The notes under the pieces were generated by a model. The model saw nothing but the letters and a program-made list of their open reading frames with translations. It was not told the origin of the DNA and searched no databases. From an uncultured Verrucomicrobiota bacterium (GTDB lineage: Bacteria > Verrucomicrobiota > Verrucomicrobiia > Opitutales > Intestinicryptomonadaceae), in NCBI GenBank assembly GCA_949298545.1, contig CASFWX010000074.1:1-39473 (forward strand): a stretch of 39,473 nt of DNA, given 5' to 3'. Shown one piece after another: positions 17,855 through 38,664 of the stretch. A program made the translations under genes and the position numbers. Every line of letters starts with the position of its first letter. Position 1 is the first letter of the stretch.

Positions 17855-17870
17855 CGTGAAAAAATAAAAT

Positions 17871-17976
17871 GGGGTCAGGCGATCCACGGCACATGGAAGG
17901 CGTCGCTACCGTTGCTTTCTTCCGAACCTGGCGGGGTTCGCGCGTCTGCCCATTGCATGGAGCCCGACCTTGCCCC
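17871..17976 (-). ncRNA. ffs: Signal recognition particle RNA (4.5S type)
   Basis: Read on the minus strand, the segment starts GGGGCAAGG and ends CCTGACCCC, which pair to close a long hairpin of about 106 nucleotides. The apical part carries the conserved SRP domain: CCAGGTTC-GGAA-GAAAGCAACGG. The GGAA tetraloop (17920-17923) and the asymmetric internal loop that bind Ffh are at the expected places. Next to the tetraloop the usual UCC/GGA stem is UUC/GAA, a compensated base-pair change that supports a real structure. The RNA acts with Ffh in co-translational targeting of membrane proteins. Its 3' end is 16 bases before uppS and is followed by a T-rich tract, so it may have its own end or be cut from the operon transcript. 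No clear promoter was identified. Confidence 0.93.
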
Positions 17977-18102: not shown

Positions 18103-18870
18103 TTATTTCGCGCTTTCGGCGCTCTTTACTAGGGCGGCGAAACTGTCCGCTTTGAGGGCGGCTCCGCCGATGAGCCCGCCGTCAATGTCTTTTTCGGCGA
18201 GGAGCGCGTCGGCGTTTTCGGGCTTCATAGATCCGCCGTAGAGTATTTGAATCTTTTCGGCAGTTTCGGAACCGAAAGCGTCTGCGAGAATCTTGCGGAT
18301 TGCCGCATGGACTTCCTGCGCCATTGCGGGGGTGGCGGTTTTGCCTGTTCCGATTGCCCACACTGGCTCGTAGGCTATTACTATTTTTTCGGCGTCGGCG
18401 CCGGAGATCCCCTCTAGGCCTTTTATTGTCTGCTCGGAAACGACATCGAGAGTTTTGCCGGATTCGCGCTCTTCCAGTTTTTCACCGACGCAGAGAATGG
18501 GTTTCATGCCATTTTCGAGAACGGCTTTTACTTTTTTATTTATGAGGCAGTTGCATTCTTTAAAATATTCGCGGCGCTCGCTGTGGCCGAGAATGACATA
18601 GGAGCAGTCGAATTGTTTGAGCATGTCCGCGGAAATTTCCCCGGTAAATGCCCCGCTCTTTTCGAAATACATATTTTGGGCTCCAAGCTTCATTGTGGAA
18701 CCTTTGAGTGCTTTTGAAGCAGCGTCGAGGGAAGTGAAGGTGGGGCATACTGCGACCTCAACTTTTTCCTGCGACCCGATTTGTTCCTTTATGGATTCTA
18801 TGAGCGCCACGGCTTCTGCCGCAGTCTTGTTCATTTTCCAGTTCCCAGCTATAAAATATTTGCGCGACAT
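18103..18870 (-). CDS. tpiA: Triosephosphate isomerase
   Basis: TpiA interconverts dihydroxyacetone phosphate and glyceraldehyde 3-phosphate. The 255-residue protein has the full catalytic set: Asn10 and Lys12 in GNWKMNK, the electrophile His96 in LGHSERR, and the base Glu168 in AYEPVWAIGTG, followed by the flexible loop 6. The phosphate-binding 'YGGSMKPENA' and 'GGLIGGAAL' close the barrel. It follows pgk by 32 bases on the same strand and shares its terminator, forming a pgk-tpiA unit. Confidence 0.98.
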   Translation of the reverse strand: MSRKYFIAGNWKMNKTAAEAVALIESIKEQIGSQEKVEVAVCPTFTSLDAASKALKGSTMKLGAQNMYFEKSGAFTGEISADMLKQFDCSYVILGHSERREYFKECNCLINKKVKAVLENGMKPILCVGEKLEERESGKTLDVVSEQTIKGLEGISGADAEKIVIAYEPVWAIGTGKTATPAMAQEVHAAIRKILADAFGSETAEKIQILYGGSMKPENADALLAEKDIDGGLIGGAALKADSFAALVKSAESAK

Positions 18871-18902: not shown

Positions 18903-20156
18903 TTATTTATCTTGCAGGGAAGCGACACCCGGAAGCTCCTTGCCTTCAAGGAATTCAAGAGACGCTCCGCCGCCGGTGGATACATGCGACATCTTGTCAG
19001 CCAAGCCGCTCTTGTTGACCGCCGAAACGGAGTCTCCGCCTCCAATTATGGAGATTCCGCCCGCAGCTTTGACTTCGGCGACCGCGGCACAGACGCCGAA
19101 TGTTCCCTTGTTGAATTTTTCCATTTCAAAGCAGCCCATCGGGCCGTTCCAAACCACTGTCTTGGCGTCTTTTATCGCATCGGAGAACAGCTTGACGGAT
19201 TTTGGGCCGATATCCAGTCCCATCCAGTTGTCGGGAATATCCCCCTCAACAACTTTTGTATCGGCGTCTGGAGCGAATCTATCGGCAACCACATTGTCTA
19301 TTGGAAGCAGGAACTTAACTCCCCGTTTTTCGGCTTCGGTCATCATTTCTTTGGCATAGTCGATCTGGTCATTTTCGCAAAGCGAGCTGCCGATCTTAAC
19401 TCCGCGCGCTTTTAGGAAGGTGTAGGCCATTCCGCCACCGATTATTAGGGTGTCAACTTTTTGAAGCAGATTCTTTACTACCGCGAGCTTGTCGGAGACT
19501 TTCGCTCCGCCAAGAATCGCCACAAATGGGCGTTTCGGATTTTCAATGGCGGATCCGAGATATTCTATTTCCTTTTCCATGAGGAAGCCCGCCACGGATG
19601 TTCCAGCATATTTAGTGATGACGGCGGTCGAAGCGTGCGCGCGGTGCGCAGTACCGAAAGCGTCGTTGCAGTAAATGTCTCCATAGGAGGCGAGTTTTTT
19701 GGCGAGTTCCTTCTGCTTTTCCTTCAGCTCCGCTTTGCGAGCTTTAAAGTCTTCGTCGCTCTCGCCTTCCTTCTGTTTGCATTTTGCCTGTTCCTCCTTG
19801 TGGTAGCGGGTATTCTCCAGCATGACTATGTCGCCGGGTTTCATTGCGGAAACTTCTGCATCGGCGCTCGCGCAATCTGGCGCGAAAGCTACGGGTTTGC
19901 CGAGAAGTTTAGATAGATAATCTGCGACAATTTTCATCGTCGTATCGGGCGTGATTCCCTTTTCATCGGGGCGCCCCATGTGGGACATGAGAACGAGACT
20001 TCCGCCCTGTTCGAGAACGTATTTTATCGAGGGCAGAGCCCCCTTTATTCGTGTGTCGTCCTTGATTTCGCCGTCTTTTACGGGAACGTTGAAATCGACG
20101 CGCATCACGACTTTTTTGCCTTTTAAATCGACATCGCGGAGAGTCTTTTTATTCAT
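18903..20156 (-). CDS. pgk: Phosphoglycerate kinase
   Basis: Pgk transfers phosphate from 1,3-bisphosphoglycerate to ADP. From the ATG at 20156 the protein has 417 residues. I chose this start because AAGGA lies at proper spacing before it and [15 protein letters not shown] is the normal family N-terminus; an upstream in-frame ATG at 20222 adds 22 unlike residues. Visible motifs are 'RVDFNVP' (substrate Asp21), 'SHMGRP', '[13 protein letters not shown]', 'GGAKVSDK' and the nucleotide-binding 'GGGDS' with '[13 protein letters not shown]'. Odd is a highly charged Lys/Glu-rich insertion at about residues 122-148, where most bacterial enzymes have only a few residues. The gene is transcribed apart from gap, which has its own terminator. 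Confidence 0.97.
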
Positions 20157-20254
20157 TATATATCCTTTTTTAGATTTTTGTAAATATCGTTCGCATATTG
20201 GGCGGCTTTGCGCCTTTTGCAAACACTTTCTTTTTTTTTGTGCTGGCGGCGGGC

Positions 20255-20309: not shown

Positions 20310-21320
<1,011 letters not shown>

Positions 21321-21713: not shown

Positions 21714-22727
21714 ATGGAAAGAAACGGAATACTGGGCTCAGGTTCATGGATTGTCGACCATATCAAGATAATTGACGAGTGGCCGGAGCAGGACACTTTA
21801 TCGTCCGTAATTTCGAGCCGTTCTGCGAACGGCGGAATGCCCTTTAACATACTTAAGGATCTCGCGAGAATGAATTTTCCCGCGCCTTTGCAGGCTTGCG
21901 GGCTTTTGGGGGAGGACCCCGACGGAGAGTTCATACAGTCGCATTGCAGGGAACTTGGGATTGATACGTCGCTTTTTATAACTAGCTCTTTCGTATCCAC
22001 GGCTTTTACCGACGTTATGAGTGTTGCCAGCTCGGGGCGCAGAACTTTTTTCTATTATCCCGCCGGAAACGACCAGATAGAGCCAAAACACATGCGCGTA
22101 GAAGAATCCAGGGCAAAAATATTCTTCGAAGGTTATTTCGGCTTAAACGGGAAGATGGACGCCGTGTCTGAAAACGGCTCCACGGGGCACTCGGAAATTT
22201 TTTCCAAGGCAAAGAGCCTCGGATTTATTACCGCTTCGGATCTCGTGAGCAGAAATGTAGATTTTTCATCTTTGACCCGCAGTTCTCTTCCGCATCTCGA
22301 TTATCTTTCTTTAAACGAGTTGGAGCTAAAATATCTCGCCGGCGGAGACGCTTTAAATTGCGCCGATATAAAGAGCGAAGCTAACATAAAAAAATACGCT
22401 TCGGAAATTTTGCGCCGCGGAATAAATAAATTTTTAATAATTCATTTCCCGGAATGCGTTTACGCGTTTGGTCAAGACGGCAGCATGTACAAGCAATGCA
22501 GCGTGGATTTTCCCAGAGAAAGGATAAAGGGCGCGACAGGTGCGGGAGACGCCATGTATGCCGGCGTTCTTTTCGGAGTTCACGAATCATGGGATATGGC
22601 GGACTGCTTGCGGCTCGGCGTGTGCGCAGCCGCGCAGTGCCTTACCGACGACTCCGCCTCCGACGGGATGGCTGACTGGAGGGATTGTTTAAAGCTTGCG
22701 GACTTGTACGGATTTAAAGAAGCATAA
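21714..22727 (+). CDS. PfkB/ribokinase-family carbohydrate kinase
   Basis: This 337-residue protein belongs to the PfkB superfamily, which phosphorylates sugars or nucleosides with ATP. The N-terminus from the chosen ATG (MERNGILGSGSWIVDHIKI) is the usual first strand with a substrate-binding Asp. The first PfkB signature is represented by 'NGGMPFNILKDLARMN' and 'GLLGEDPDGEF', and the C-terminal signature by GATGAGDAMYAG with the catalytic Asp. The substrate cannot be read from sequence. The next gene begins within its stop codon (1-base overlap), so the two are almost certainly co-expressed. The partner looks like an aldolase, suggesting kinase-then-cleavage of a sugar phosphate feeding the triose-phosphate enzymes encoded next door on the other strand. 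Confidence 0.92.
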   Translation: MERNGILGSGSWIVDHIKIIDEWPEQDTLSSVISSRSANGGMPFNILKDLARMNFPAPLQACGLLGEDPDGEFIQSHCRELGIDTSLFITSSFVSTAFTDVMSVASSGRRTFFYYPAGNDQIEPKHMRVEESRAKIFFEGYFGLNGKMDAVSENGSTGHSEIFSKAKSLGFITASDLVSRNVDFSSLTRSSLPHLDYLSLNELELKYLAGGDALNCADIKSEANIKKYASEILRRGINKFLIIHFPECVYAFGQDGSMYKQCSVDFPRERIKGATGAGDAMYAGVLFGVHESWDMADCLRLGVCAAAQCLTDDSASDGMADWRDCLKLADLYGFKEA

Positions 22728-23713
22728 TGCATATGGAAACGAAGACACTGGATATAAAACTAAAAAAAATACTCTCCGGGGATAGGAGACCCGAAAATTT
22801 TATAATAGCCGACGCCAAAGATTCGGATATGGCGCGCGGTATAAATTCCGCCGGATTCGGTTCAGACGGGAAATTCCGCAACCAGCGCACGTACCGCCAA
22901 ATGATGCGCGAAGTTGTCAAGCAGGGAATTGTGGATATTATGCTGATGTCCGCATCAAATCTCGAAGTGCTTTCGAGAGAGGGGATATTTGAGAACAGCC
23001 CCGTCACCCCGGCGGCTCGCGCAAACGACACTACGGACATTTGGGTCGCGAGAAAATCCGAATATGCGAATCTCCCCTCGAAGCCGTTTGCAAGCGCGTC
23101 TATCGATTCAATATTGGGTGCCGGAGCGGATTTGGGGCTTTATTCAATGACTTTTAACAACATTCTCGAGAGGGACTTGGAGTCTATTGAGAGGTTTGCC
23201 GATTTTAGGCGCGCTTGCGCAGAAAAAGGCTTTCGGTATTTTTTAGAAGTTTTTAATCCGAACTCTCCTCAAGGCATTGCGGAATCAGACATTCCCGCCT
23301 ATGTGAACGATTGCATAGTAAGATCGCTTGCTGGCGTTGTGGAGTCGCAAAGACCGCTCTTCTTGAAAGTCGCTTATAACGGGCCCAAAGCAATGGAGGA
23401 GCTCGCGACTTACGACGACAGGATAATTGTCGGCATACTCGGAGGCAGTTCGGGCAGCACTCTTGACGCTTTTGCGCTTCTTCACGAAGCGCAAAAGTAC
23501 GGCGCCATGGTTGCGCTCTTCGGCAGGAAGATAAACGACGCGCAGTCTCCGTTGCATTTTCTTGAAAGCATGCGCGCCGTTTCGGATTCTCTTGTATCTC
23601 CGCGCGAGGGGGTCAAGCTTTACCACGACAAGATGAAAAAGGCGGGAATCGTTCCGGTGGTTTCTCTTGAAGACGATTTGATTTTGAGCGCCAAGCTTCA
23701 GCAGCATTACTAA
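22727..23713 (+). CDS. Aldolase-like TIM-barrel protein of unassigned function
   Basis: I do not recognise a named family for these 328 residues. The pattern of strand-like blocks ('NFIIADAKDSDMA', 'IVDIMLMSASN', 'GLYSMTFNN', 'RYFLEVFNPN', 'LFLKVAYNGP', 'IIVGILGGSSGST', 'GAMVALFGRKIND') is that of an eight-stranded TIM barrel of the class I aldolase type (DeoC/FbaB/LacD-like). Lys214 in 'LFLKVAYNG' on the sixth block is the best candidate for a Schiff-base lysine. 'GGSSG' followed by 'FGRKI' resembles the phosphate-binding end of such barrels. The start codon overlaps the kinase stop; another ATG six bases on is also possible. No signal peptide is present, so it is cytoplasmic. Function as a sugar-phosphate aldolase is inference from fold pattern plus the kinase neighbour. 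Confidence 0.8.
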   Translation: MHMETKTLDIKLKKILSGDRRPENFIIADAKDSDMARGINSAGFGSDGKFRNQRTYRQMMREVVKQGIVDIMLMSASNLEVLSREGIFENSPVTPAARANDTTDIWVARKSEYANLPSKPFASASIDSILGAGADLGLYSMTFNNILERDLESIERFADFRRACAEKGFRYFLEVFNPNSPQGIAESDIPAYVNDCIVRSLAGVVESQRPLFLKVAYNGPKAMEELATYDDRIIVGILGGSSGSTLDAFALLHEAQKYGAMVALFGRKINDAQSPLHFLESMRAVSDSLVSPREGVKLYHDKMKKAGIVPVVSLEDDLILSAKLQQHY

Positions 23714-23743
23714 AAAGGCGTTCGATAGGAGCATTCTGTTAAT

Positions 23744-23795
23744 TTCGGCGTTCAGGCAGCTTTTTAAAAAAACGGCTTGAGCGCCGAAGTTTTTT
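23744..23795 (+). terminator. Intrinsic terminator of the kinase/aldolase unit
   Basis: A 14-bp stem with two G-U pairs (23744-23757 with 23775-23788) is followed by a run of T residues. It lies 30 bases past the aldolase-like gene. Confidence 0.88.
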
Positions 23796-35035: not shown

Positions 35036-35184
35036 AAATTTGAATATAAATAAAGTACTAGAAAAACATCTTTCGCCGCATATTTCCACAAAATTTTTTA
35101 GGTTTTCGACAATCTTGGGGGATTTGTAAAAAAATACTTGACTCCATTTCCAGGAAGTCGAGATTGTGCTCCGTTCTTTGCAAC

Positions 35185-35362
35185 TTATAGGATTCGTTCA
35201 AAGACGAAATTCCTCCGCAAACGGAAGCCCGTGAAATTCGGGCGCGGTCTCGCCGCTGTAATATCCGAAAGCGCCCCTGTGCCACTGTTGTTTCAATGGG
35301 AAGGCGGGCGCTCGTCGCTCTTTCGCGACTTTGGATCGAGCCAGAAGACGTGTGTGGGGAAT
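35185..35362 (+). promoter_or_regulatory. Cobalamin (vitamin B12) riboswitch aptamer
   Basis: The conserved core of AdoCbl/B12 riboswitches is present in order on the plus strand. It has ACGGAAGCCCGTGAAATTCG then GGCGCGGTCTCGCCGCTGTA (35221-35260), GCCACTG (35281-35287), TGGGAAGG (35297-35304) and the closing GAGCCAGAAGAC (35338-35349). The outer ends are approximate because the P1 helix is not obvious. These elements bind a cobalamin and in known cases shut off downstream B12 uptake or synthesis genes. The genes downstream here (surface protein, TonB-dependent receptor, exported protein) fit B12 uptake. A TTGACT at 35139-35144 might be part of its promoter, but the matching -10 is poor. Confidence 0.92.
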
Positions 35363-35424
35363 GTCCATTTAATTCCCGAGAATGGAAGACAGGACAATGC
35401 GCGGATTCCTTTTGCCGCCCATGC

Positions 35425-36477: not shown

Positions 36478-36516
36478 TATTCGCCCGCAATCTTTTAAAT
36501 AAAGTGCGGGCGGATG
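36478..36516 (+). promoter_or_regulatory. Hairpin covering the receptor start codon
   Basis: A 12-bp stem pairs 36478-36489 with 36505-36516, including a G-C-rich 8-bp core and two or three wobble or A-T pairs at the base. The last three paired bases are the ATG of the TonB-dependent receptor. Five T residues follow, so the same hairpin could end transcripts of the DUF4465 gene. It may lower receptor output relative to the first gene. Confidence 0.55.
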
Positions 36517-38664
36517 TTTTTCTCGGGGCGTTTGAAATATTTGAAAAAAAACTTATTCATAATTTCCGGGTTTTTCTGCCTCTTGCATTGTCTCGCTGAA
36601 AATAGCGAAACCGCTGAAGCTTTGTCGGAAGATTTAAAAGATCTTCCCGCGGTTGCGCACGCCGATTCCAAAGAGGTGGAGGGCGTGCTTGAAGAATTTG
36701 TCGTCACGGCGTATAGGTTTGACGCGCTTCCGCTCGATTCTCCGGTCAATTCTACTTTTATAAGTTCCGACAAACTCGATTCGTCGCCCTATTCGAATGT
36801 AGCAGAGGCCATAAAAAAATTCGGAAATATAAACTTTCGTTCCGTCACTGGTTCAGATGCTTCCGGAGACTTGTCTATGAGGGGGTTCGGCGAAAATTCC
36901 CAAACCCGAATTCTCGTAATGGTGGACGGGCAAAAGATAAACCGCGCGGATATGGGGGCGATAAACTGGCTTCAAATACCGCTTTCAGACGTGGAGAGCA
37001 TAGAAATACTGCGCGGGCCCCAGAGCGCTCTTTACGGGTCTTCGGCAGAGGCGGGCGTTATAAAGATAACCACGCGCAGATCGAAGGAAAACGGATTTAA
37101 CTATTCGGCACAGGCATATTACGGCTCGTGGAACACCTATAACTTGGCGTTTCGCGCCTCCGGCCGGCAAGACGAAAACTTCTTCTCTCTCGACTTAAAC
37201 ACTTTGTCGAGCGACGGCTGGCGCGAAAACTCGGCTGCCCGGGCATCTTCCGCAAATCTTTCGCTCGGCTGGGATATAAATTCGAAAAACACTCTTATCG
37301 TGACAGGAAACTACACAGATTCGAGAACGGAGTTTCCCGGTCCTCTCACATGGGAGCAATATGTTGAAGATGCCAGGCAGAGCGATGGGAAGGGCGCTTA
37401 TTCCGACTCAAAAGACGGCGTTTACACTGCGACGCTCAAAAACGAATCGGCTTCCGGCGAGGGCGAGATCGGACTCGGATGGAATTTTCGCGACATATTT
37501 TGGACTCTCGGCGGCAGAAGCAAAAATTTCCAATGGACTGGCACTGTCACCCCGCGCTATAAATTCGACGTCGGGGAAAGCGCCCATGTCCTCGTAGGAT
37601 TCGACGGGACTCTCGACGACATAGATTACAAGGGATATTACAGGCAAACCCGATATTACCAGCGCATGGCAGACGCCGACAGATATTCGCTTTCTCCGTA
37701 TTTCGGTGGCGATTTAAAGCTTGGGGAAAAACTTATTTTTAACGCAGTCGGCAGATTTGAGTCTTCGAGGCTCCATGTTAACAATACCGAATATTTGCCA
37801 AATACAATAGAGCCGGAAAGAGTAGTAGTGATTGGAGGAAAAGAATACCGCATTCCCAATCCGGATTACCCCCCGCAAATCGATCCTGCCAATTCTTTTG
37901 ACAATTCCATAACTTACAACGGCTGGAGCGCGAATTTTGGGGCGACTTATCTTCTGAGCGATGCAGTGTCGCTCTTTTTTAAATTCGACCAGATATACCA
38001 TTATCCGACAACGGACGAAGTAGCTTCATATCAGGGGGGTGGGCTTCCCGTGCCCTTCAACTTCAACCTCAAGCCCGAACAGGGGCAAAATTATGAATTG
38101 GGTGCGAAGGCGGCATTTGAAAAGTGGACTTTTACGGCGAGCGTGTATCTCATGGAGCTCATCGACGAAATTGCTTATTACGAGTATGTCGATTCCTCCG
38201 GAGGCGTATCGTACACAAACACGAACTTGCCTCCGACGCGCCGTTTTGGAACCGACATAGAAGCGCGGTACGACGATGAGAGATGGGGCGTGGGCGCAAT
38301 GTTTTCAGCGGTGCGCGCCGAGTTTGACGGGGGAAAGTGGTCGGGTAAAAGCGTGCCTTTAGCTCCCGATTTTTACGGAAATCTGTCGGCTTATTTCAAG
38401 CCTCTTGAATGGATAACTCTCAGCGCGCGTGCCACGTTTATATCGGAACAGTATGTCGGCAGCGACTATGCAAACTCGGTTCCCAAACTTCCCGCATATG
38501 TCCTGGTTGACTTTCAAGCGACTTTCGACTTTTGCCGCTACGGCAATTTTTTTCTCGCTATCGAAAACGCTTTCGACAAGCGTTATGTATCTTGCGCGTG
38601 GATGAGCGGATACTATCCCGGAGCAGGAAGAATGTTAAAAGCGGGAGTAAACCTTAAATTCTAG
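36514..38664 (+). CDS. TonB-dependent outer-membrane receptor, BtuB-like (probable cobalamin transporter)
   Basis: This 716-residue protein has a signal peptide (basic residues 8-12, hydrophobic to about 27, then AEN). A TonB box EEFVVTAYR lies at residues 60-68, close to the DTLVVTA box of E. coli BtuB. The plug domain follows (about 72-175) with 'SMRGFGENSQTRILVMVDGQ', 'LSDVESIEILRGPQSALYGS' and 'AGVIKITTRR'. A 22-strand barrel fills the rest, ending in Phe as outer-membrane proteins do. Late motifs are 'LKPEQGQNYELGAK' and 'ENAFDKRY'. The B12 riboswitch upstream makes cobalamin the likely substrate. The start is uncertain: the ATG at 36514 lies inside a hairpin, and in-frame TTG codons at 36532 and 36541 would give shorter signal peptides. 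TonB/ExbBD and the BtuCDF transporter are not in the window. Confidence 0.92.
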   Translation: MFFSGRLKYLKKNLFIISGFFCLLHCLAENSETAEALSEDLKDLPAVAHADSKEVEGVLEEFVVTAYRFDALPLDSPVNSTFISSDKLDSSPYSNVAEAIKKFGNINFRSVTGSDASGDLSMRGFGENSQTRILVMVDGQKINRADMGAINWLQIPLSDVESIEILRGPQSALYGSSAEAGVIKITTRRSKENGFNYSAQAYYGSWNTYNLAFRASGRQDENFFSLDLNTLSSDGWRENSAARASSANLSLGWDINSKNTLIVTGNYTDSRTEFPGPLTWEQYVEDARQSDGKGAYSDSKDGVYTATLKNESASGEGEIGLGWNFRDIFWTLGGRSKNFQWTGTVTPRYKFDVGESAHVLVGFDGTLDDIDYKGYYRQTRYYQRMADADRYSLSPYFGGDLKLGEKLIFNAVGRFESSRLHVNNTEYLPNTIEPERVVVIGGKEYRIPNPDYPPQIDPANSFDNSITYNGWSANFGATYLLSDAVSLFFKFDQIYHYPTTDEVASYQGGGLPVPFNFNLKPEQGQNYELGAKAAFEKWTFTASVYLMELIDEIAYYEYVDSSGGVSYTNTNLPPTRRFGTDIEARYDDERWGVGAMFSAVRAEFDGGKWSGKSVPLAPDFYGNLSAYFKPLEWITLSARATFISEQYVGSDYANSVPKLPAYVLVDFQATFDFCRYGNFFLAIENAFDKRYVSCAWMSGYYPGAGRMLKAGVNLKF

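Follow-up and report, generated by a model that had tools for sequence, protein, structure and literature searches.

Characteristics of the gene pair

Two adjoining genes on the forward strand of the window (the whole 39,473-nucleotide stretch analysed here, from an uncultured Verrucomicrobiota bacterium) encode a PfkB-family sugar kinase and a 328-residue protein of an unnamed family (Table 1). The kinase gene runs from an ATG at 21714 to a TAA at 22725-22727, and the second gene from an ATG at 22727-22729 to a TAA at 23711-23713. Downstream of the second stop codon, after 27 bases, comes a hairpin with arms at 23741-23757 and 23775-23791 and a T-run behind it; its folding z-score of -3.37 was obtained against 200 shuffles, and it is absent from the result of a simple terminator scan with a loop limit of 8. 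An earlier sequence-only reading had described a kinase/aldolase pair with a one-base overlap and its own terminator, which is confirmed by the reading-frame coordinates and by the hairpin with its T-run. Homologues of the aldolase gene were found at 42-64% identity in several phyla, which rules out a chance arrangement of open reading frames.

Table 1. Features of the kinase/aldolase pair and its neighbours, with positions in the window.
Feature	Position	Strand	Evidence
PfkB-family sugar kinase, proposed ketose 1-kinase, 337 aa	21714..22727	+	PF00294; ketohexokinase as top PDB sequence match; AF2 model
Class I-type aldolase (predicted), unnamed family, 328 aa	22727..23713	+	AF2 TIM barrel; fold neighbours; LsrF-type profile match
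One-base gene overlap, TAATG	22727..22727	+	Direct sequence reading
Codon of Lys214, proposed Schiff-base lysine, strand 6 (212-215)	23366..23368	+	Invariant, 123/123; aligned with LsrF-type Lys
Codon of Glu174, possible acid/base, strand 5 (170-176)	23246..23248	+	Invariant, 123/123; role inferred
Intrinsic terminator, 17-bp stem then T-run	23741..23793	+	RNA fold z -3.37
gap, divergent neighbour, probably outside the unit	20310..21311	-	PF00044/PF02800
pgk, neighbour	18903..20159	-	PF00162
tpiA, neighbour	18103..18870	-	PF00121

The adjacency of gap, pgk, and tpiA had been read as a link to triose phosphate metabolism. These genes are real, but they are divergent from the pair (402 bases separate the start codons of gap and the kinase gene) and none of them was seen next to it in L031, L153, or L155, the closest relatives whose loci were read. 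Therefore, the adjacency is no evidence for a route, and a functional association is unsupported. Elsewhere in the window, a bacterial small SRP RNA gene lies on the minus strand (17870-17969), and a cobalamin riboswitch (35168-35369) precedes a TonB-dependent receptor gene (36514-38664).

The host genome carries two phosphofructokinase (PFK) matches (C4 and C23), one class II FBA (C41), and DeoC, all away from the pair. The presence of PFK and class II FBA indicates that the pair is accessory and not needed for ordinary glycolysis, and the idea that it stands in for missing glycolytic enzymes was rejected. Seven PfkB stretches were found in this genome, including the window kinase, and the sole match in a PF01791 search belongs to another locus (C85). 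A search of the same genome (92% complete) for two isomerase families, PF07385 and the epimerase-type PF07221, found neither, and no transporter adjoins the pair in the window.

Fold and conserved residues of the 328-residue protein

The 328-residue protein has no Pfam match up to an E value of 1, PF01791 included, and NCBIfam matches it only weakly, with class I aldolase models (LsrF, E 0.018; ADH-synthase, E 0.1). Identity as LsrF (3-hydroxy-5-phosphonooxypentane-2,4-dione thiolase) was rejected, with 14.3 bits against a cut-off of 297 for the NCBIfam equivalog PRK08227. An AlphaFold2 model based on 22 sequences predicts a TIM barrel (pLDDT 86.5, pTM 0.88) with eight strands in barrel order (26-31, 71-74, 94-98, 136-142, 170-176, 212-215, 234-238, and 262-265) and two weak stretches (36-38 and 103-113, pLDDT under 50). 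The predicted barrel, the blank Pfam result, and the weak NCBIfam matches bear out the earlier description of an aldolase-like barrel of no nameable family.

Among the solved structures listed, the closest folds are MJ0400 (Z 23.5, rmsd 2.9, 254 aligned residues) and LsrF (Z 22.6, rmsd 3.0, 250 aligned); T. tenax FbaB (Z 22.1, rmsd 3.1, 249 aligned), sulfohexulose-1-phosphate aldolase (Z 21.6, rmsd 3.2, 252 aligned), LacD (Z 20.8, rmsd 3.0, 247 aligned), YihT (Z 20.6, rmsd 3.4, 249 aligned), and aldolase B (8d44; Z 18.9, rmsd 3.4, 259 aligned, 11% identical) were also matched. Foldseek agrees on MJ0400, LsrF, archaeal FbaB, and LacD as neighbours. The top solved folds matched by the predicted model are all class I aldolases, a likeness that alone shows no function. 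A comparison of the family with six LsrF-type enzymes by hhalign (all six of L022-L027 forming the outgroup profile) gave a probability of 96.2% and an E value of 2.3e-9 over 103 columns.

Residue 214 is lysine in all 93 homologues of a first set and all 123 of a larger one, and Glu174 (strand 5), Gly239 (after strand 7), and Gly266-Arg267 (after strand 8) are invariant in the same 123. Lys214 falls exactly on the invariant lysine of the six LsrF-type enzymes in the hhalign alignment; in a HMMER alignment to LsrF (E 0.0042), the two lysines are one column apart. The aligned lysine of LsrF is its Schiff-base residue. The sequence-only reading was to be given up if the fold proved not to be a TIM barrel or if Lys214 varied among homologues; the model is a TIM barrel that carries Lys214 on its sixth strand, and the lysine is invariant. 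The class I aldolase superfamily of the DeoC/LacD/FbaB/LsrF type is recognised by a TIM barrel with a strand-6 Schiff-base lysine, and the fold, the lysine position, and its conservation place the protein there, with Lys214 as the predicted Schiff-base residue. Taken together, the 328-residue protein is very probably a class I aldolase acting on a sugar phosphate.

Since LsrF and MJ0400 are the closest folds and profile matches, the protein could instead perform Schiff-base chemistry without aldol cleavage, as LsrF does in its thiolase step and MJ0400 in its transaldol step. However, the profile alignment covers the C-terminal third alone, and the neighbouring genes encode sugar isomerases and sugar kinases, with no lsr or aromatic genes among them, which makes such a chemistry very unlikely.

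The kinase

The kinase matches PF00294 (PfkB) with an E value of 2.9e-24 and 86.4 bits against a cut-off of 25.8, and its GAGD motif (G276-A277-G278-D279), invariant in all 14 kinase sequences, agrees with membership of this family. D15, GG40-41, and N45 are invariant as well; together with GAGD 276-279, they are general PfkB features, and the invariant residues leave the phosphate position unfixed. The best PDB sequence match is ketohexokinase (E 5.6e-10). In the AF2 model (pLDDT 91.7), the nearest fold among those listed is E. coli YdjH (3in1; Z 38.2, rmsd 2.3, 307 aligned, 20% identity), followed by ribokinases; ketohexokinase is missing from the best 50 fold matches, an absence that excludes nothing. 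We propose that the window kinase phosphorylates a ketose at C1, as ketohexokinase does.

Two more specific assignments were rejected. The kinase has no match to PF25270 ("Prokaryotic ketohexokinase"), and the loci with PF25270 carry a different gene. A pairing of an IolC-type kinase with its aldolase was also discarded, as the kinase scores 46.8 bits against a TIGR04382 cut-off of 300 and the aldolase gives no match.

Distribution of the aldolase family

In a sample of 387 genomes spanning the phylum, 21 of 387 have a strong match to the aldolase, and a threshold of E 0.001 raises this to 27 of 387. The six weak phylum matches (L022-L027) are not members, and the four scanned (L023, L025, L026, and L027) are LsrF/ADH-synthase-type class I aldolases (LsrF/DhnA-like). 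Within the order, 40 of 372 genomes have a strong match (43 of 372 at E 0.001), and the gene occurs in 4 of 19 genomes of the family and 3 of 14 of the window's genus; this patchy presence from phylum to genus marks the aldolase gene as accessory. Of 65 loci found in a collection of genome contigs, 64 lie outside the phylum, mostly in alphaproteobacteria, many of them SAR11-like single cells. Moreover, 47 plasmid records, largely from Rhizobiaceae, carry the gene, and a matched feature, where named, is called "hypothetical protein". The family is thus widespread, spanning Verrucomicrobiota, SAR11-like and other alphaproteobacteria, and rhizobial plasmids.

Partner genes

Partners were counted within 3 kb of the aldolase gene with our own profiles, using cut-offs of 150 bits for the window-type kinase, 100 bits for the ketohexokinase-type kinase, and 60 bits for the isomerase. 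The verrucomicrobial set comprises 53 loci (the window, L031, L102-L124, L153, and L155-L181), of which G228 gives four, G497 two, and G684 two; L154 was dropped for apparently sharing a contig with L031, and two G443 matches lie outside the set. Weak members count as absent, for example the L042 isomerase (PF07385, E 1.6e-9). At that locus (L042:2229-3944), the aldolase and the weak PF07385 match have as neighbour a PfkB kinase with a fused nucleoside/nucleotide-kinase-type domain.

A window-type kinase was found near the aldolase in 18 of the 53 verrucomicrobial loci and in 52 of the 64 others, so the survey for conserved pairing suggested by the sequence-only reading did recover it. A ketohexokinase-type kinase was found in 15 verrucomicrobial loci, and five of these genes, when scanned, belong to PF25270 (L103, L105, L107, L116, and L177; E 9.1e-42 to 7.9e-50). 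Both kinds occur together in one locus of 53 (Fisher p 0.0098, a guide only, given the relatedness of the loci and the fact that one genome can contribute several of them); the ketohexokinase-type gene nearly always stands in place of the PfkB kinase. The D-lyxose/D-mannose isomerase (PF07385) was detected in 22 of 53 verrucomicrobial loci and in 42 of 64 others, the latter not being 42 independent cases, since the alphaproteobacterial loci derive from many closely related SAR11-like genomes. In the window's own genus, isomerase, kinase, and aldolase genes overlap in one operon (L031), followed by an AraC-like gene identified by eye. In 15 of the 53 loci, the fetched stretch holds no kinase of either type and no isomerase.

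With this isomerase as a recurrent partner, the kinase probably acts on a ketose that carries no phosphate. The substrate had been left as a sugar or a sugar acid, and with aldose isomerases and ketohexokinase-type kinases as the conserved partners, a sugar acid is the less likely of the two. These partners also bear on a bisphosphate route, in which a ketose-6-phosphate would be converted to a ketose-1,6-bisphosphate and then to dihydroxyacetone phosphate (DHAP) and glyceraldehyde-3-phosphate, as by LacC/LacD. LacC and LacD are likewise a PfkB kinase and a class I aldolase, and the fold comparison lists LacD as a close neighbour (Z 20.8), but the partner isomerases and ABC transporters supply unphosphorylated sugars, and the kinase is swapped with the PF25270 ketohexokinase; such a route is accordingly improbable. 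A ketose-1-phosphate is the probable substrate of the aldolase.

Six of the 47 plasmid neighbourhoods were opened. Four contain the kinase (split into two ORFs in L099), and in three of these four it is accompanied by a ROK regulator and by a sugar transporter of the ABC type. The kinase is replaced by an FGGY kinase with a glycerol-3-phosphate-dehydrogenase-like enzyme in L097 and by DhaK/DhaL in L101, partner sets that may represent different ways to make a ketose-1-phosphate.

Other neighbours concern the supply of sugar. A GH38 alpha-mannosidase lies beside the operon in L102 and L157 and, together with the mannose/lyxose isomerase, points to mannose as one feed. GH2 genes occur in a cluster of five loci (L112, L113, L119, L159, and L161); little weight was given to their being mannosidases, as a mannosidase Ig domain was detected in L112 alone of three scanned and NCBIfam weakly suggests galactosidase/glucuronidase. 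NagB-like and PIG-L deacetylase-type genes stand beside the aldolase in L105:3712-5470, L108:4742-6710, L155:1521-3321, and L160:6067-7878. The NagB-like protein is distant, with no Pfam match in the two scanned; one might speculate that an amino sugar is another way to the fructose skeleton. Two aldolase types share one locus in L104:9070-12579 and L109:4275-7952, where the new class I-type aldolase stands next to genes for a class II-type aldolase and for an SftI-like isomerase, in L104 with a further PfkB kinase between them.

Operons with product-side genes and the choice of ketose

Three verrucomicrobial operons from two families (L173, L177, and L181) have the order SftI-like isomerase, ketohexokinase, aldolase, aldehyde dehydrogenase, APH-type kinase, and enolase, with an extra protein lacking a Pfam name between aldehyde dehydrogenase and APH-type kinase in L177 and L181. 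Each of the three genomes has another, better-scoring enolase elsewhere; G619 and G228 have one enolase. The aldehyde dehydrogenase, APH-type kinase, and second enolase fit a conversion of glyceraldehyde to glycerate, 2-phosphoglycerate, and PEP. An enolase is useful solely if the second half-product ends as 2-phosphoglycerate, suggesting glyceraldehyde as that product and hence a ketohexose-1-phosphate as the substrate. This reasoning comes from the three operons and, carried over by analogy, points to a ketohexose for the window as well. The APH-family kinase beside the second enolase and aldehyde dehydrogenase is a candidate glycerate 2-kinase of a new type. In L168 (5576-7141), an enolase gene adjoins a window-type kinase and aldolase.

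A pentose version would convert D-lyxose or another pentose to D-xylulose and D-xylulose-1-phosphate, with cleavage to DHAP and glycolaldehyde. It would suit the partner isomerase family, which is named for D-lyxose, and the xylulokinase-like FGGY kinase and ribose-type binding protein that SAR11 loci also carry; the xylulose-1-phosphate route is described, in the titles and abstract openings found, solely as a synthetic pathway. However, a second enolase and an APH-type kinase in three operons would make no sense for glycolaldehyde, and GH38 mannosidases stand beside the aldolase, so we regard the pentose version as unlikely. The least probable of the alternatives considered is a ketose with a modification, for example a sulfo-sugar or a 6-deoxy sugar: the fold neighbours include sulfohexulose-1-phosphate aldolase (Z 21.6) and an SftI-like isomerase heads the three operons, but the latter is distant from sulfoquinovose isomerase SftI (98 bits against a cut-off of 700), and a reading of the neighbourhoods by eye brought up no sulfoglycolysis gene.

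Proposed route

Our preferred reading, to which we assign a probability of roughly 0.6, is that the pair forms a two-gene operon that splits a keto-sugar by means of a C1 kinase and a class I aldolase of an undescribed family; the kinase-plus-aldolase chemistry suggested from the sequence is thus probably right. It builds on the fold family, the invariant lysine, the conserved pairing, and the partner genes, from which we infer catalysis, phosphorylation at C1, and the substrate. A free ketose would be phosphorylated at carbon 1 by the PfkB kinase, and the 328-residue protein would cleave the ketose-1-phosphate via a Schiff base on Lys214 to give DHAP and an aldehyde. The likeliest ketose would be D-fructose, derived from D-mannose or another aldose, with D-glyceraldehyde as the second product; that the aldolase acts on fructose-1-phosphate in particular is a tentative assignment, somewhat short of even odds.

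More tentative still is a wider proposal, namely a liver-like fructose-1-phosphate route built from unrelated parts and spread through bacteria, reaching SAR11-like ocean bacteria. Its parts would be an aldose isomerase, a C1 ketose kinase from either of two interchangeable families, and the new class I ketose-1-phosphate aldolase, joined in the most complete operons by aldehyde dehydrogenase, an APH-type glycerate 2-kinase, and a dedicated second enolase. Neither phosphofructokinase nor FBP aldolase would be needed on the way from mannose or fructose to DHAP and PEP.

Comparison with known systems

The predicted aldolase resembles LsrF, MJ0400, and archaeal FbaB in fold and strand-6 lysine, with the GG and GR phosphate-site motifs aligned; it differs from them in its greater length, in the low identity of the fold alignments (13-16%), and in being missed by PF01791. 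The LacC/LacD and YihV/YihT systems also combine a PfkB kinase with a class I aldolase, and LacD, YihT, and YihV are fold neighbours, whereas the new aldolase has no Pfam or NCBIfam assignment to their families. The substrates of both systems differ from the one proposed here. E. coli YdjH, the nearest fold of the kinase, phosphorylates ketoses at C1 and has as its partner the aldolase YdjI, which is a class II enzyme, unlike the new class I-type aldolase.

The proposed bacterial route is similar to vertebrate fructolysis by ketohexokinase and aldolase B, although in fold the new aldolase stands closer to MJ0400, LsrF, and FbaB than to aldolase B. According to PMC11519228, the human route phosphorylates the ketose at carbon 1, followed by class I cleavage to DHAP and an aldehyde, and the Haloarcula ketohexokinase is the first with a demonstrated physiological role in prokaryotes. 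A gene of PF25270, the family to which the Haloarcula enzyme presumably belongs judging by the family name, lies beside the new aldolase in some Verrucomicrobiota. In Haloarcula hispanica, however, fructose-1-phosphate passes through 1-PFK and FBP aldolase and, as described in the same paper (PMC11519228), is not cleaved directly. In the titles and abstract openings of the open-access literature searched, no paper was found on a bacterial fructose-1-phosphate or ketose-1-phosphate aldolase, or on this gene set or its near relatives.

From sequences and predicted models, three things appear to be new: a widespread family of class I aldolases that had gone unrecognised, the ketose kinases that alternate as its partners, and a route of the fructose-1-phosphate type that is coherent but unproven. 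A family annotated as "hypothetical protein" would thereby gain a testable enzyme activity. If confirmed, the activity would also provide a class I aldolase for making ketose-1-phosphates. Should the substrate be fructose-1-phosphate, bacteria would possess the direct cleavage route that textbooks give for animals, and models of sugar catabolism in gut-type Verrucomicrobiota and marine alphaproteobacteria would have to be revised.
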